Of a stretch of DNA of 64,000 nt, positions 6,736 to 12,351 are shown one piece after another (within the stretch, counting starts at the first letter, position 1; each line of letters begins with the position of its first letter). The notes under the pieces are model-generated. The model was not told where the DNA came from. It did not search any database and saw nothing but the letters and a program-made list of their open reading frames with translations. Origin of the DNA: Bacillus gaemokensis (GTDB taxonomy: Bacteria > Bacillota > Bacilli > Bacillales > Bacillaceae_G); assembly GCF_001590835.1 (NCBI RefSeq), contig NZ_LTAQ01000069.1:4360-68359 (forward strand). Reading direction: 5' to 3'. The position numbers were made by a program, and so were the translations under genes.

Positions 6736-6785
6736 CAAAAGTATTTTTCTATTTTTGTTGATTTTTATGAGATGTACATTATAAT

Positions 6786-6811
6786 AGAACAAGATGTTCT
6801 TAAAAAAGAAC
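6786..6811 (+). promoter_or_regulatory. SinR operator upstream of sipW
   Basis: Three half sites: agaac (6786-6790), gttct (6796-6800) and agaac (6807-6811). The last two form the 16-bp inverted repeat GTTCTTAAAAAAGAAC. SinR of Bacillus recognises GTTCTYT-type half sites. It lies 60-85 bp before sipW. Function inferred from the motif. Confidence 0.7.
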
Positions 6812-6870
6812 AAAGCGATAAGATGTGTAATTACATCAATATATTAATTCATTTGAAAGGAATGAGAACA

Positions 6871-7446
6871 ATGAAATTATTTCTGAAAATTGTTAGCAAT
6901 ATTGTCTCATTTGTCCTGTTTATTACTATGGTGACCTTGGCGTTTTTTGTAATTTCGTCTAAGGCAAGTGGTGGAGAACCAACTATAATGGGATACCAGT
7001 TTAAGACCGTACTTTCTGGATCGATGGAACCAACTTTCTATACAGGGTCAATTATCGCAATTAGTCCAACTAAAGATGGTTCTAAATATCAAAAAGGTGA
7101 CGTTATTACTTTTAAAGATAAAGAAGAGAAAATTATAACTCACCGTATTATCAAAGTGAATAATGTAAATGGAAAAGTAACATATGAAACAAAAGGGGAT
7201 AATAACAACGGGGCAGATTTAGAAGCGGTTCTCGCAGAAAATGTGTTAGGAAAATATGAGGATATTACAGTTCCTTATGTTGGATATGGACTAGATTATG
7301 CAAACTCTAAGGCTGGAGCTGCATTGTTATTAATTGTACCTGGGATATTATTACTTGGTTATTCTGCATTTTCTATCTTTGGAGCAATTAGACAAATTGA
7401 TAATGAGAAAAAGAGCAAAAGTACAGATGCAGGACAATCAATGTAA
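6871..7446 (+). CDS. sipW: ER-type signal peptidase I SipW
   Basis: A 191-residue membrane protease. Helix 1 spans residues ~5-30. The catalytic Ser box VLSGSMEPTF puts Ser at ~51. The general-base region reads IITHRIIKV with His at ~91 where bacterial-type enzymes have Lys, and this Ser/His pair is the mark of SipW and eukaryotic/archaeal signal peptidases. GDNN and a second membrane segment near 155-180 follow. SipW processes TasA/CalY precursors, and three such genes lie immediately downstream. The start at 6871 follows GAAAGGAATGAG; earlier in-frame starts lack a ribosome site and would run through the SinR operator. Confidence 0.93.
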   Translation: MKLFLKIVSNIVSFVLFITMVTLAFFVISSKASGGEPTIMGYQFKTVLSGSMEPTFYTGSIIAISPTKDGSKYQKGDVITFKDKEEKIITHRIIKVNNVNGKVTYETKGDNNNGADLEAVLAENVLGKYEDITVPYVGYGLDYANSKAGAALLLIVPGILLLGYSAFSIFGAIRQIDNEKKSKSTDAGQSM

Positions 7447-7836: not shown

Positions 7837-8424
7837 ATGACACTTAAGAAAAAATTAGGTATGGGTGTAATGTCAGCAGCATTAGGATTATCTTTAGTAG
7901 GTGGAGGAACTTTCGCTTACTTCAGCGATAAAGAAACTACAAACAATACATTCGCAGCAGGTACGTTAGATCTTTCTGTTAATCCATCAACAATTATTAA
8001 TGTTGATAACATTAAACCTGGTGATACAATGCTAAGAACTTTCAAATTAGCTAACAAAGGTTCATTAGACATTAAAACAGTTAAATTAGCAACTGAGTAC
8101 CAAGTAATTGATGCGAAAGGTGATAACACTGAAGATTTCGCTAAAAATATCAAAGTGAAATTTATGTGGAATGCAGATAAAAACACTGTACCAGTTTATG
8201 AAACAACATTAGCTGATTTAAAAACAATGACTCCTGATGTAGTAGAGAAGCATGTATTCGCTCCTCATTTTGCTAAAGGTGGTTTAAAAGCAGGTACAGA
8301 TGATGTACTAGCTGTTAAATACGAATTCGTTGAGAATGGCCAAGATCAAAACCAATTCCAAGGTGACAAACTTGAGCTTAAATGGACATTCAACGCAGAG
8401 CAAACAGAAGGCGAACAAAAATAA
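7837..8424 (+). CDS. tasA: TasA/CalY family matrix fibre protein (M73, camelysin), paralogue 1
   Basis: A 195-residue precursor. The signal peptide LGLSLVGGGTFAYFSDKET carries the SipW-type cleavage context found in TasA-like proteins (cut near AYFSDKE). The mature beta-sandwich domain has FAAGTLDLSVNP, NIKPGDTMLRTFKLANKGSL and a C-terminal QDQNQFQGDKLELKWTFNA strand. The family forms amyloid-like or donor-strand fibres of the biofilm matrix; camelysin was first described as a surface metalloprotease. Being next to sipW, this copy corresponds to tasA. The ribosome site is aggggga. It has its own SinR-linked promoter and a terminator. Confidence 0.93.
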   Translation: MTLKKKLGMGVMSAALGLSLVGGGTFAYFSDKETTNNTFAAGTLDLSVNPSTIINVDNIKPGDTMLRTFKLANKGSLDIKTVKLATEYQVIDAKGDNTEDFAKNIKVKFMWNADKNTVPVYETTLADLKTMTPDVVEKHVFAPHFAKGGLKAGTDDVLAVKYEFVENGQDQNQFQGDKLELKWTFNAEQTEGEQK

Positions 8425-8603: not shown

Positions 8604-8636
8604 TATAATGTAAATGTAAGGTTCTTAATAAAGAAC
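8604..8636 (+). promoter_or_regulatory. promoter -10 and SinR operator of the repeat protein gene
   Basis: TATAAT at 8604-8609 and GTTCTTAATAAAGAAC at 8621-8636. The spacing (11-12 nt) and operator sequence are the same as before tasA. Confidence 0.75.
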
Positions 8637-8664
8637 TTTAATGCACGTGACAGGAGAGGATATC

Positions 8665-9537
8665 ATGAGTAAAGTATCCAGGAAATTTAAAAGCGCGCTC
8701 GTATTAACGTGTATGTGTTCTATGTCTTTTTATATGGGAGCAACTGTTATAGGGAATACAGAAGCTAAGTTTTTAAATGAAAAAAAGGTAGATTCTGTTG
8801 TTTCAGCTGCGATTGTGTTCCCAAAGACAATTGAAAATATAACAAAAGAAGCACAGTTAAAAGAGTTAGAGATTTTAAAAACATATCAAAGCATGATGCA
8901 AGATGCACAGACTAGTACATCTGTAGAGGACATGGAAAAAGTTTTAGTTAATTGGCAACAACAACGTGAAAAGCTCTTACTGAATCAACAAGTGTTACAA
9001 AATATATATACAGAGGTCGAAGGATATTATAAACAAATATCGGAGACTGTGAAAGTAGGTAATACAAAAGCAAGTCAAGAGGTACTTGCATATGTGCAAA
9101 ACGGTTTTACAAACATTAAGAATATAAAAAGTAATACAGAACAACAGGCAAGTATACAAAAGATAGATGAAATGAATGGTTTGTTACAAACAAAAATTAA
9201 TGAAGCGAAGCAAAAACAACAAGAAGAACAAGCGAAGCAAAAACAACAAGAAGAACAAGCGAAGCAAAAACAACAAGAAGAACAAGCGAAGCAAAAGCAA
9301 CAAGAAGAACAAGCGAAGCAAAAGCAACAAGAAGAACAAGCGAAGCAAAAGCAACAAGAAGAGCAAGCGAAGCAAAAAAGCGAAGCAAAAGCAACAAGAA
9401 GAACAAGCGAAGCAAAAGCAACAAGAAGAGCAAGCGAAGCAAAAGCAACAAGAAGAACAAGCGAAGCAAAAACAGCAAGAAGAGCTAGCGAAGCAAAAGC
9501 AACAAGAAGAACAAGCGAAATCATAACAAAAAACTAA
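8665..9537 (+). CDS. secreted protein with glutamine-rich 9-residue repeats; reading frame slipped inside the repeats
   Basis: The start is the ATG at 8665 after CAGGAGAGG. The protein has a signal segment (SALVLTCMCSMSFYMGATVI), then a ~150-residue helical region, then a tandem repeat of AKQKQQEEQ (27 bp per unit). After six units the frame slips at 9366-9388, where an A6 run and a truncated unit occur. The product then reads SEAKATRRT/SEAKATRRA repeats and stops at 9537. In the +1-shifted frame the AKQKQQEEQ pattern resumes for five units and stops at 9526 (QAKS), which is probably the ancestral end. The position corresponds to the biofilm-associated gene between tasA and calY in B. cereus (DUF4047-type, from memory). 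A basic instead of a Q/E-rich tail is expected here. Confidence 0.75.
   Translation: MSKVSRKFKSALVLTCMCSMSFYMGATVIGNTEAKFLNEKKVDSVVSAAIVFPKTIENITKEAQLKELEILKTYQSMMQDAQTSTSVEDMEKVLVNWQQQREKLLLNQQVLQNIYTEVEGYYKQISETVKVGNTKASQEVLAYVQNGFTNIKNIKSNTEQQASIQKIDEMNGLLQTKINEAKQKQQEEQAKQKQQEEQAKQKQQEEQAKQKQQEEQAKQKQQEEQAKQKQQEEQAKQKSEAKATRRTSEAKATRRASEAKATRRTSEAKTARRASEAKATRRTSEIITKN
9205..9525 (+). repeat. 27-bp tandem repeat array
   Basis: About eleven copies of a 27-bp unit (gcgaagcaaaaacaacaaga, then agaacaa) with few substitutions and one shortened unit at 9366-9388. All six frames are open across most of it because the unit has no stop in any frame, so slippage changes the product without ending it at once. 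Confidence 0.9.
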
Positions 9538-9660: not shown

Positions 9661-10251
9661 ATGGGAATTAAGAAAAAGTTAGGTATGGGAGTAGCGTCAG
9701 CAGCATTAGGATTATCTTTAATTGGTGGAGGAACGTTTGCATATTTTAGTGATAAAGAAGTTTCTAATAATACGTTTGCAGCAGGGACATTAGACCTTTC
9801 TTTAGATCCAACAAAAATTATCGACGTTAGTAATATTAAACCTGGAGATAAGATGACACGTGATTTTAAACTTATTAATAATGGCACTTTAGATATCAAA
9901 ACTGTTAAATTATTAACTGACTACAAAGTAATAGATGCAAAAGGTGATAACACAGAAGACTTTGGAAAACATATTCGTGTGAATTTCTTCTGGAATTGGG
10001 ACAAGCTTAGCGAGCCAATTTTCTCAACGACATTAGCAGATTTAAAAGGAATGTCGCCAGATGCAGTTGAACAAAGTATTTTTGGTGACTGGTTTGCAGA
10101 AAAAGGCGGCTTAAAGCATGGTGATTCAGACTATCTATGGGTACAATATGAATTCGTAGATAATAATCAAGATCAAAATCAATTCCAAGGGGATAAACTT
10201 GAATTGAAATGGACGTTTGAAGCAGAGCAAACTGCAGGCGAAGAAAAGTAA
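9661..10251 (+). CDS. TasA/CalY family protein, paralogue 2
   Basis: A 196-residue precursor with the family signal (GLSLIGGGTFAYFSDKE) and a mature part FAAGTLDLSLDP ... NIKPGDKMTRDFKLINNGTL ... DQNQFQGDKLELKWTFEAEQ. It differs from paralogue 1 mainly in the central segment (FFWNWDKLSEPIFS; GDWFAEKGGLKHGDSDYLWV), where it resembles paralogue 3 more. It is an extra copy compared with the two-gene tasA/calY layout that I recall for the B. cereus type strain. It should be processed by SipW and could co-polymerise or cap fibres. Paired with the following LPXTG gene. Confidence 0.92.
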   Translation: MGIKKKLGMGVASAALGLSLIGGGTFAYFSDKEVSNNTFAAGTLDLSLDPTKIIDVSNIKPGDKMTRDFKLINNGTLDIKTVKLLTDYKVIDAKGDNTEDFGKHIRVNFFWNWDKLSEPIFSTTLADLKGMSPDAVEQSIFGDWFAEKGGLKHGDSDYLWVQYEFVDNNQDQNQFQGDKLELKWTFEAEQTAGEEK

Positions 10252-10261
10252 TTTTATAAAA

Positions 10262-10291
10262 GAAAAAGGTGGGATCTTCCCACCTTTTCCA
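10262..10291 (+). terminator. terminator between paralogue 2 and the LPXTG gene
   Basis: Stem aaaaggtggga / tcccacctttt and a T-rich flank. Short T tract, so read-through into the next gene is possible. Confidence 0.65.
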
Positions 10292-10335
10292 TCTTACAAT
10301 ATTCTAACATAATTTCGTTTATATGAGGGATGCGT

Positions 10336-11019
10336 ATGAATCGAAAAAAGTTTTGGTATATTATGATTACTTATTGTGTCATTGTACTTATAGTTGGAAT
10401 AATAATGGGTATGGAAACAATGCAAGCTAAAGAACAGAAAGAAGTTGATTTAAGTATATCACCTAATGAGGTGCTGTTTGATGTTCCTAATATGAAACCA
10501 GGAGATTGGGCAACGCGTAGCATTCGTGTAAATAATAATAATGATTCCTCTTTTTTTTACTACATAAATTCAGAATTTAATGAAGGTTCTGAAAAACTTT
10601 ATCGTGCGTTGCAATTGACAGTGAAAGTTTCAGAAAAGGTGCTCTATAATGGGAGTTTAAGTGAATTTACAGGAGAAGAAAAACGTATACTAGCAGGGGG
10701 AGGAACTGAACAAGTACAGTATGTAGTCCGTTTCCCTGAAGAGTTAGGGAATGATTACCAAGGCTTAAATGTAAAGATGAAATTTGTTTTCTACGCAGGG
10801 TCTGATAATAATATGTTGGATTCAACGTACAATAAGGAAAAGGATACTTCTAATGTGCATGCGGATCATAATAAAGATTCATCTTCACAAAGTACAAATG
10901 GAAAACATAACAGTTTACCTAATACGGGAAGTGCCAATAGAAATATAATGTTTATTTTATTAGGAAGTGGATTGATTACTTTTGCAATATTATTATGGTG
11001 GAAAAGAATTGAAAATTAA
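10336..11019 (+). CDS. LPXTG-anchored protein with a camelysin/WxL-like ectodomain
   Basis: About 227 residues. N-terminal membrane/signal segment (YIMITYCVIVLIVGIIMGME), cut after MQAKE. The beta domain begins VDLSISPNEVLFDVPNMKPG, which repeats the family pattern DLSxxPxxxxxxxNxKPGD of TasA/CalY. A Ser/Asn-rich stalk (~180-200) leads to the sortase signal LPNTG, a hydrophobic helix and the tail WKRIEN. It could tether TasA/CalY fibres to peptidoglycan, a role like TapA of B. subtilis. That role is inference from the domain and context. ATG 10336 is preferred over 10330 for spacing to gaggg. Confidence 0.75.
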   Translation: MNRKKFWYIMITYCVIVLIVGIIMGMETMQAKEQKEVDLSISPNEVLFDVPNMKPGDWATRSIRVNNNNDSSFFYYINSEFNEGSEKLYRALQLTVKVSEKVLYNGSLSEFTGEEKRILAGGGTEQVQYVVRFPEELGNDYQGLNVKMKFVFYAGSDNNMLDSTYNKEKDTSNVHADHNKDSSSQSTNGKHNSLPNTGSANRNIMFILLGSGLITFAILLWWKRIEN

Positions 11020-11225: not shown

Positions 11226-11241
11226 GTTCTTTATAATGAAC
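11226..11241 (+). promoter_or_regulatory. calY promoter -10 inside a SinR-like inverted repeat
   Basis: GTTCTTTATAATGAAC is an imperfect inverted repeat whose centre contains TATAAT (11232-11237). Unlike the tasA site, the operator covers the -10 itself, so repression should be direct competition with polymerase. Confidence 0.7.
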
Positions 11242-11325
11242 ATATAGGGATGAGACAGAGAACATAGAAGGGGTAGCATATTTGCAACAAAAATAGGATA
11301 GAAAAAGTTGTGGAATTAGTTATAC

Positions 11326-11377: not shown

Positions 11378-11971
11378 ATGTCATTAAAGAAAAAATTAGG
11401 TATGGGAGTAGCTTCAGCGGCATTAGGATTATCTTTAATTGGTGGGGGAACGTTCGCATACTTCAGCGATAAGGAAGTTTCTAATAATACGTTTGCAGCA
11501 GGTACTTTAGACTTAGCGGTTAATCCAAAAACAATTATTGACATCGATAACTTGAAACCTGGTGATTCTGTTAAGAAAGAATTCTTATTACAGAACAAAG
11601 GGACATTAGCAATTAAAGATGTAAAACTTGCAACTAAGTATTCAGTAGTTGATGCAAAAGGAGATAATGTTGGAGAAGATTTTGGAGATCATATTAAAGT
11701 GAAATTTATCTGGAACTGGGATAAACAAAGTGAGCCTGTATATGAAACAACATTATCAGAGTTACAAAAATTAGATCCAGATCTTTTAGCGAAGGACGTT
11801 TTTGCACCAGAATGGTCTGAAGAGGGTGGCTTAAAAGCTGGATCAGAAGATTATCTATGGGTACAATTTGAGTTTGTAGATAATGGTCAAGACCAAAATA
11901 AATTCCAAGGTGATAAAGTAAACCTAGAATGGACATTTAATGCAAACCAAACTGAAGGCGAAGAGAAATAA
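11378..11971 (+). CDS. calY: camelysin CalY (TasA family), paralogue 3
   Basis: A 197-residue precursor: MSLKKKLGMGVASAALGLSL, cleavage region GGGTFAYFSDKE, mature FAAGTLDLAVNPKTIIDIDN, LKPGDSVKKEFLLQNKGTLA and the C-terminal DQNKFQGDKVNLEWTFNANQ. The start is the ATG at 11378 after ATGGGGGAATTT; the in-frame ATG at 11363 lies inside that site. It neighbours sinR, which is the calY position in the B. cereus group. Camelysin is an abundant surface protein, fibre component and adhesin. Its terminator is shared with the convergent sinR. Confidence 0.93.
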   Translation: MSLKKKLGMGVASAALGLSLIGGGTFAYFSDKEVSNNTFAAGTLDLAVNPKTIIDIDNLKPGDSVKKEFLLQNKGTLAIKDVKLATKYSVVDAKGDNVGEDFGDHIKVKFIWNWDKQSEPVYETTLSELQKLDPDLLAKDVFAPEWSEEGGLKAGSEDYLWVQFEFVDNGQDQNKFQGDKVNLEWTFNANQTEGEEK

Positions 11972-12027: not shown

Positions 12028-12351
12028 TTATTTATTTTGTTGTTTCCATTTGTTGAATTCTAAAAATTCTCGGAATTTATCCTTAGTAATTCCAGAATTC
12101 ATAGCATCTTTAACTAGTTTAATCCATTCAGAATCTAACGCATCTTCTTTTAAAGGTTCATCGTGAAGAAGAGAATCAACCGGTATATTTAAAACGGATG
12201 CAATTTTTTCTAAAAATTGAATGGAAGGGTTTTTTTGTAAATTACGTTCGATAGAGCTAATATATGATTTTGCTACACCTGCTTTATCGGCTAGTTCTGT
12301 CAATGATATGCTTTTTTGTAGGCGAAAGCGTTTTATACGGTCTCCAATCAT
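12028..12351 (-). CDS. sinR: SinR, XRE-family repressor of biofilm genes
   Basis: 107 residues. An N-terminal helix-turn-helix (residues ~2-60: IGDRIKRFRLQKSISLTELA, AGVAKSYISSIERN) is joined by a linker to the C-terminal tetramerisation and SinI-binding helices (LDSEWIKLVKDAMNSGITKD, FREFLEF). The C-terminal part resembles the SinI ORF just upstream, as expected since both use the same helical hook. It represses matrix genes through GTTCT-type sites, and four such sites lie in 6.8-11.2 kb. It is downstream of sinI on the minus strand, as in B. subtilis. Confidence 0.95.
   Translation of the reverse strand: MIGDRIKRFRLQKSISLTELADKAGVAKSYISSIERNLQKNPSIQFLEKIASVLNIPVDSLLHDEPLKEDALDSEWIKLVKDAMNSGITKDKFREFLEFNKWKQQNK

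Follow-up and report, generated by a model that had tools for sequence, protein, structure and literature searches.

Known systems and the locus

In the TasA fibre as described, the N-terminal strand of protomer n inserts into protomer n+1 (PMC10151520), and a TasA subunit is reported to be unable to extend its own strand until it has received one (PMC9674648). TapA of Bacillus subtilis is described as having a donor start near-identical to that of TasA and a closed, complete immunoglobulin-type domain into which no strand can be received, so that it can stand only at the beginning of the fibre; the same account calls it membrane-associated (PMC10151520). A further source has TapA only “thought to be involved” in holding TasA fibres to cells (PMC9674648). 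According to the description of the B. cereus system, tapA is lacking there and CapP is located in the cell wall (PMC13082335), and the cluster is given as sipW-calY1-bc_1280-calY2 (PMC10151520; PMC13082335). A 2026 paper calls this system sortase-independent. Here we describe a related cluster in a stretch of 64,000 nucleotides from Bacillus gaemokensis (contig NZ_LTAQ01000069.1, positions 4,360 to 68,359 of the forward strand), referred to below as the window, which carries an additional gene for a camelysin (the TasA/CalY family, PF12389) and beside it a gene for an LPXTG protein with a sortase signal. We regard it as rather probable that this protein is the terminal subunit of TasA/CalY fibres, able only to accept a strand and anchored by sortase. 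The attachment of TasA fibres to cells does not look settled, and an LPXTG family acting as the terminal subunit would be a specific and testable answer, one that fixes the polarity of the fibre and offers a step for controlling its length.

A wall-sorting signal and a predicted TasA-type domain

The LPXTG gene comprises the following features.

10330..11019, + strand: LPXTG protein gene, ectodomain of TasA/camelysin type (intact open reading frame (ORF), Pfam matches, model and fold match, 66-member family)
10330..10434, + strand: N-terminal hydrophobic signal segment, about residues 1–35 (helix 5–30 in the model; no SipW-type AxFxD site)
10441..10809, + strand: ectodomain, residues 38–160, predicted TasA-type jelly roll
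10495..10506, + strand: KPGD, residues 56–59, containing the counterpart of the receiving Pro62 of TasA
10915..10929, + strand: LPNTG sorting motif, residues 196–200, then a hydrophobic helix and a basic tail (sequence, Pfam, model)

The intact ORF encodes 229 amino acids. Its C-terminal end, with the LPNTG motif, the hydrophobic stretch and the basic tail, has the layout of a sortase-anchored surface protein and is recognized by two wall-anchor profiles, PF00746 (21.1 bits, cut-off 20) and TIGR01167 (24.9 bits, cut-off 15.9); the predicted model places helices at both termini. A match to NF053819 (EF2685/EF0750 family surface protein) stayed below its cut-off (36.2 bits versus 47) and was confined to the C-terminal region, residues 167–226.

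The initial annotation, made from the sequence without database searches, had described a camelysin paralogue paired with a protein that ends in LPNTG and carries a camelysin-like domain. This description holds: both ORFs are intact and, as judged from sequence profiles, the likeness of the LPXTG protein to camelysins is above chance. PF12389 matches residues 38–70 at 25.8 bits (cut-off 22.5), a partial match that spans positions 42–73 of the 196 in the profile and falls short of its full length, and a comparison of the LPXTG-family profile with the camelysin profile gives a probability of 98.7% (E 4.7e-16) over 140 columns. The pattern DLSxxPxxxxxxxNxKPGD, proposed as common to this protein, TasA and CalY, is present at residues 40–59 (DLSISPNEVLFDVPNMKPGD) but is followed only loosely, because the spacing from P to N is 8 in the LPXTG protein versus 7 in the camelysins of the window, and calY has DLA. 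The initial annotation had named an ectodomain devoid of a TasA-like fold as refuting its reading; the reading withstood this test on predicted models, which show the TasA jelly-roll fold, and a deeper model fits the TasA fibre protomer more closely than the monomer. The LPXTG family is like TasA and CalY in its predicted fold, its KPGD site, its NxFQ motif and its operon with sipW. It differs from them in lacking the SipW-type signal, the donor N terminus, the equivalent of Gln232 and a mid-domain insertion, and in possessing a C-terminal sortase signal.

In Pfam, camelysins are named as metallo-endopeptidases, for which HExxH is the usual zinc motif. We rejected this activity as a candidate function: HExxH occurs in 0/66 LPXTG proteins and 0/83 camelysins.

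Elements for receiving and for giving a strand

The account of the TasA fibre includes a “proline box” formed by F29 of protomer n, Q232 of n+1, and F200 and P62 of n+2, and the N30 equivalent of the donor also bonds N215 of n+2 (PMC10151520). We transferred these positions through a PDB alignment and a camelysin alignment and then counted them. The camelysin counts for Gln232, Phe200 and Asn215 refer to the 42 of 83 sequences that score at least 150 bits and are closest to the seeds; the donor start was counted in the 81 camelysins with an xPGD site, 2 of the 83 having no such site.

The receiving elements are kept. The equivalents of P62 and N215 are each present in 66/66 members of the LPXTG family and 42/42 camelysins, while the F200 position, Phe in 42/42 camelysins, holds Phe in 42 of the 66 family members and Ile, Met or Val in the other 24. 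The elements for giving a strand or for being followed by another subunit are lost. The strict donor start AxFxD, the mark of the SipW-type signal and donor N terminus, is found in none of the 66 LPXTG proteins versus 81/81 camelysins, and the Q232 equivalent in none of the 66 (47 have Gly there, and the window protein has Ser) versus 42/42. A loose form of the donor motif occurs in 6/66, where it lies inside the hydrophobic segment or at its border, versus 80/81 camelysins, and the median distance from the end of the hydrophobic segment to the proline is 31 residues in the LPXTG family versus 39 in camelysins. TapA-like proteins carry the strict motif in 30/47 cases and the loose one in 41/47; the SipW-processed donor N terminus characteristic of TapA is absent from the LPXTG family. 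These counts suggest that members of the family would take up a strand without having one to pass on. Retention of the receiving elements together with loss of those needed for being followed is the pattern expected of a last subunit.

Operon context in other genera

When species genomes were searched with the LPXTG protein of the window, four relatives emerged, in Sediminibacillus albus, Mesobacillus zeae, Neobacillus thermocopriae and Oceanobacillus jordanicus, and in all four the gene order is camelysin, tapA-like, sipW, LPXTG. A search with an alignment of these four and the window protein (E ≤ 1e-15) gave matches in 77/249 genomes from the order to which M. zeae belongs and in 27/398 from the class. 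We took 60 regions for comparison, comprising the 58 best of the order search (E down to 1.3e-40, M. zeae itself excepted) and two of the class search (G497, G513); the weaker rows of both searches, many of them longer proteins, lie outside the neighbour and motif counts. Upstream counts include any same-strand match at E ≤ 1e-4 in the fetched region. A few tapA-like scores are low (30–41 bits in L101, L104 and L130), two regions contain gaps as long as 538 and 2146 bases, and counts from related genomes are non-independent.

Of the 60 regions, 55 have a camelysin gene upstream of the LPXTG gene and on its strand, 54 have sipW there, 44 have a tapA-like gene, and 43 combine all three. The two most frequent orders are tapA-sipW-camelysin-LPXTG (17/60) and camelysin-tapA-sipW-LPXTG (14/60). 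Camelysin is the nearest preceding gene type in 34/60 regions. In 52/60 the LPXTG gene is the last gene of these types on its strand, whereas in 8/60 it is succeeded there by another one (a camelysin, sipW, tapA-like or second LPXTG-family gene). The LPXTG family is, then, a regular member of TasA operons in other genera. Five regions (L078, L093, L099, L102, L103) have none of these genes upstream; at L093, L099 and L102, SinR-like and sortase-like genes lie near the LPXTG-family gene, and camelysin and sipW were not found nearby.

Within a sample of 219 genomes, 82 have camelysins, and the LPXTG family is present in 58 of these and not in 24, non-carrier counts that assume the sampled genomes to be those numbered to about G221; about 11 genomes have the family and no camelysin at the limit used. 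Sorting motifs of the 66 members are LPxTA in 34, LPxTG in 24 and LPxTS in 6, with none in 2, so that LPxT is present in 64/66. LPxTA is commoner than LPxTG, the window member having LPNTG, and the sortase class used may therefore vary between species. Sortase-like ORFs, identified by a simple pattern, lie near 10/65 loci. Four members (L118, L119, L122 and L126) occupy stop-to-stop ORFs of 504, 492, 984 and 315 amino acids, respectively, with long extra regions and the LPxT end retained. The LPXTG protein had no match in plasmid and phage collections at E ≤ 1e-5, and none of four pattern matches to it in IMG/VR was confirmed.

A model for the end of the fibre

Our model starts from the conserved neighbourhood, the predicted fold, the sorting signal and the residue pattern; from these we infer strand insertion, termination, covalent anchoring, co-transcription and effects on fibres. 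TapA, or CapP in the window organism, would give the first strand, at the fibre end opposite to the LPXTG protein, and camelysins would join successively, each receiving and giving a strand. The LPXTG protein would be exported by an ordinary Sec-type signal, and its TasA-type domain would take up the N-terminal strand that the last camelysin of the growing fibre leaves free. With no donor strand to offer, it would stop growth, and sortase would link its LPNTG motif to peptidoglycan, so that the fibre would be held by the LPXTG-protein end. The adjacent camelysin paralogue would be an ordinary fibre subunit, perhaps produced together with the LPXTG protein.

The model contains one tension. With TapA membrane-associated and CapP located in the wall, both fibre ends would have cell-surface partners. 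The tension would be resolved if the starter were held at the cell only briefly, or else if the terminator picked up fibres from farther away, perhaps while seated on an adjacent cell. What makes capture by the terminator of a neighbour conceivable is the reported membrane or wall location of the starters, together with the wall signal that the terminator carries at the other end. In its full form, this would give TasA-type fibres two chemically distinct ends, a giver-only TapA/CapP starter and a receiver-only, sortase-linked terminator, and make the fibre a cell-to-cell tether, which we consider an unlikely, speculative extension. If true, a fibre started on one cell could be covalently fixed on its neighbour instead of forming loose matrix.

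Alternative roles must be weighed against terminal anchoring. The LPXTG protein might be a wall-displayed accessory or adhesin whose closed domain takes no strand and which binds fibres sideways, decorating or bundling them. TapA, encoded in the same operons, has a complete immunoglobulin-type domain described as unable to receive a strand (PMC10151520); the Phe200 equivalent is Phe in just 42/66 of the LPXTG family; and the long extra regions of four members (ORFs of 315–984 amino acids) would suit such a role. A sideways binder nevertheless leaves unexplained why the receiving Pro and Asn are retained in 66/66 while the giving elements are lost, and why the deeper predicted model appears to fit the fibre protomer better than the monomer; we judge it rather unlikely. 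The acceptor-only pattern also fits a decoy or brake that captures free camelysin N termini at the wall and limits fibre growth, holding no fibres. The position of the LPXTG gene after the others in 52/60 regions can be read in this way, although in the window itself calY follows it, and a hairpin 5′ of the window gene (below) could keep the amount of protein low. A brake has no need of a wall link, however, yet LPxT is kept in 64/66, and we regard this role as improbable.

The initial annotation had proposed that the protein could start or anchor fibres, the task of TapA in B. subtilis. The wall signal and the operon position would also suit a wall-bound base for the first camelysin, as would the reported lack of tapA in B. 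cereus (PMC13082335). Starting a fibre requires a strand to give, which TapA has (PMC10151520), and a recognizable one is found in 0/66, so the LPXTG family should not start fibres. Nor is the family a replacement for TapA, since a same-strand tapA-like gene precedes it in 44/60 regions; the window itself has a CapP-like gene. We consider a starter role very improbable. The anchoring half of the proposal fares better: anchoring of fibres by the LPXTG protein is likely, being in keeping with its LPxT signal, its place in the operon and its acceptor-only residues, whereas starting of fibres is not.

Comparison with other fibre systems

TapA in B. subtilis and CapP in B. cereus are, like the LPXTG family, minor secreted partners encoded in the cluster and proposed to act at one fibre end. 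Whereas TapA can give a strand but not take one up, the LPXTG family has the opposite pattern together with a wall-sorting signal, and it co-occurs with tapA-like genes. FimI is described as ending type 1 pili of E. coli and helping to anchor them (PMC10673952). As a pilin-like subunit that ends and anchors a donor-strand fibre, it is the closest working analogue of the role proposed here, although it belongs to an unrelated Gram-negative chaperone-usher system and is anchored at the outer membrane. PapH is another such pilus terminator. A chaperone-usher terminator has a donor strand but cannot be followed, whereas in the LPXTG family the donor itself is missing. In sortase-built pili, SpaB-type base pilins are minor subunits whose sorting signal ties the fibre to the wall; there the shaft is polymerized by sortase, whereas a shaft ending in the LPXTG protein would be built by non-covalent donor-strand exchange. 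The sipW-bsaA operon of Clostridium perfringens is described as encoding SipW-secreted TasA-like fibres and accessory secreted proteins, with a sortase gene nearby; in that account, deletion of srtB had no effect on pellicles or BsaA, and BsaA has no LPXTG-like motif (PMC7395162). In the open-licence literature, we found no paper with both “camelysin” and “LPXTG”, and the titles and abstract beginnings of work on TasA or SipW with sortase or LPXTG contained no description of such a partner.

The cluster in the window

The remaining features of the cluster are as follows.

6772..7446, + strand: sipW, signal peptidase for camelysins (NF046067, 265.8 bits, cut-off 190)
7837..8424, + strand: tasA-like camelysin (PF12389, E 3.8e-90)
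8641..9537, + strand: capP/BC1280-like gene with DUF4047 and a repeat tail (PF13256, E 3.1e-32; own start possibly 8665)
9661..10251, + strand: third camelysin, the extra paralogue, with a complete donor N terminus (PF12389, E 1.4e-93)
9742..9798, + strand: donor-strand segment of the extra camelysin, YFSDKEVSNNTFAAGTLDL (sequence)
10262..10290, no strand assigned: 13-pair hairpin between the camelysin and LPXTG genes, possible attenuator (terminator score on the minus strand only)
11378..11971, + strand: calY camelysin (PF12389, E 5.4e-95)
12028..12351, − strand: SinR-like regulator, HTH_3 and a SinI-type segment (Pfam and curated-profile matches)

The gene order is sipW, tasA-like, capP-like, camelysin, LPXTG, calY, with the SinR-like gene on the opposite strand. 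The extra camelysin and the LPXTG gene are absent from the described B. cereus order (PMC10151520; PMC13082335), in agreement with the initial annotation.

The extra camelysin is an intact ORF of 196 amino acids, matched by PF12389 over residues 3–195 and by the SipW-type signal profile TIGR04088 (50.9 bits, cut-off 19). The calY segment that matches its donor strand aligns with TasA from F29 onward in the PDB alignment. By these sequence features, it is an ordinary fibre subunit with a complete donor start. In a midpoint-rooted tree, all three camelysins of the window group in a single clade (support 0.96) in which the extra copy branches first; it shares 70% and 64% identity with the other two over the mature part, and identity among the three spans 64–70%. 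Because of this shared clade, the extra copy has the appearance of a duplicate that arose locally, as would suit the added module proposed in the initial annotation; against this, a camelysin is the nearest preceding gene type in 34/60 regions elsewhere. The closest outside camelysins (L097, L098; support 0.92) come from regions ordered sipW-camelysin-LPXTG, so that the camelysin/LPXTG pair could equally be an old arrangement, retained here and lost from the usual B. cereus cluster. The composition of the window genes gives no signal of recent horizontal gain, the GC (guanine plus cytosine) fraction of the LPXTG gene (0.323) being near that of its neighbours, and the LPXTG-protein tree places the window member with weak support (0.29 for the pair containing it). 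Elsewhere, calY reaches at best 66% identity among 397 genomes of the order and 63% among 329 of the class; by these values and the weak DUF4047 matches given below, none of the genomes searched resembles one of the B. cereus group.

The N terminus of the CapP-like protein (window 8665–8800), TEAKFLNEKKVDS, is similar to the camelysin donor start AYFSDKE, and CapP may give a strand in the manner of TapA; the word “donor” was not found in the main text of the 2026 CapP paper. The repeat tail of the capP-like gene (8641–9537; also the frame of 9176–9526) changes reading frame where a 27-nucleotide spacing gives way to 13/14/13 nucleotides, and its repeats pass from KQKQQEEQA-type to SEAKATRR-type. 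The change could stem from a shift of register, from variation between strains or from an error in sequencing. DUF4047 has 5 matches in 398 class genomes, all above the cut-off yet weak (21.8–28.9 bits). Three of the five lie about 1 kb from a same-strand camelysin (G086:C15:232607-232900, G169:C7:196876-197169 and G033:C53:5844-6074); being outside the B. cereus group, they suggest that CapP-like partners may extend beyond it.

A terminator scan scored nothing on the coding strand from the capP-like gene to the LPXTG gene, and for this reason capP, the extra camelysin and the LPXTG gene may form a single transcript. In strain ATCC14579, the capP transcript is described as separate from those of sipW-tasA and calY (PMC13082335). 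GTTCT/AGAAC sites are present at 8621–8636, just 5′ of the capP-like gene, and at 11226–11263, before calY. These resemble SinR operators. GTTCTYT, which we take to be the SinR box, has 35 matches in the window against a shuffle mean of 24.6, and 35 was reached in 2/100 shuffles, a count that we use merely as a hint. At the start of the window, positions 4–336 encode the end of another sortase-signal protein, with LPKTG and PKDPIDPKDP repeats.
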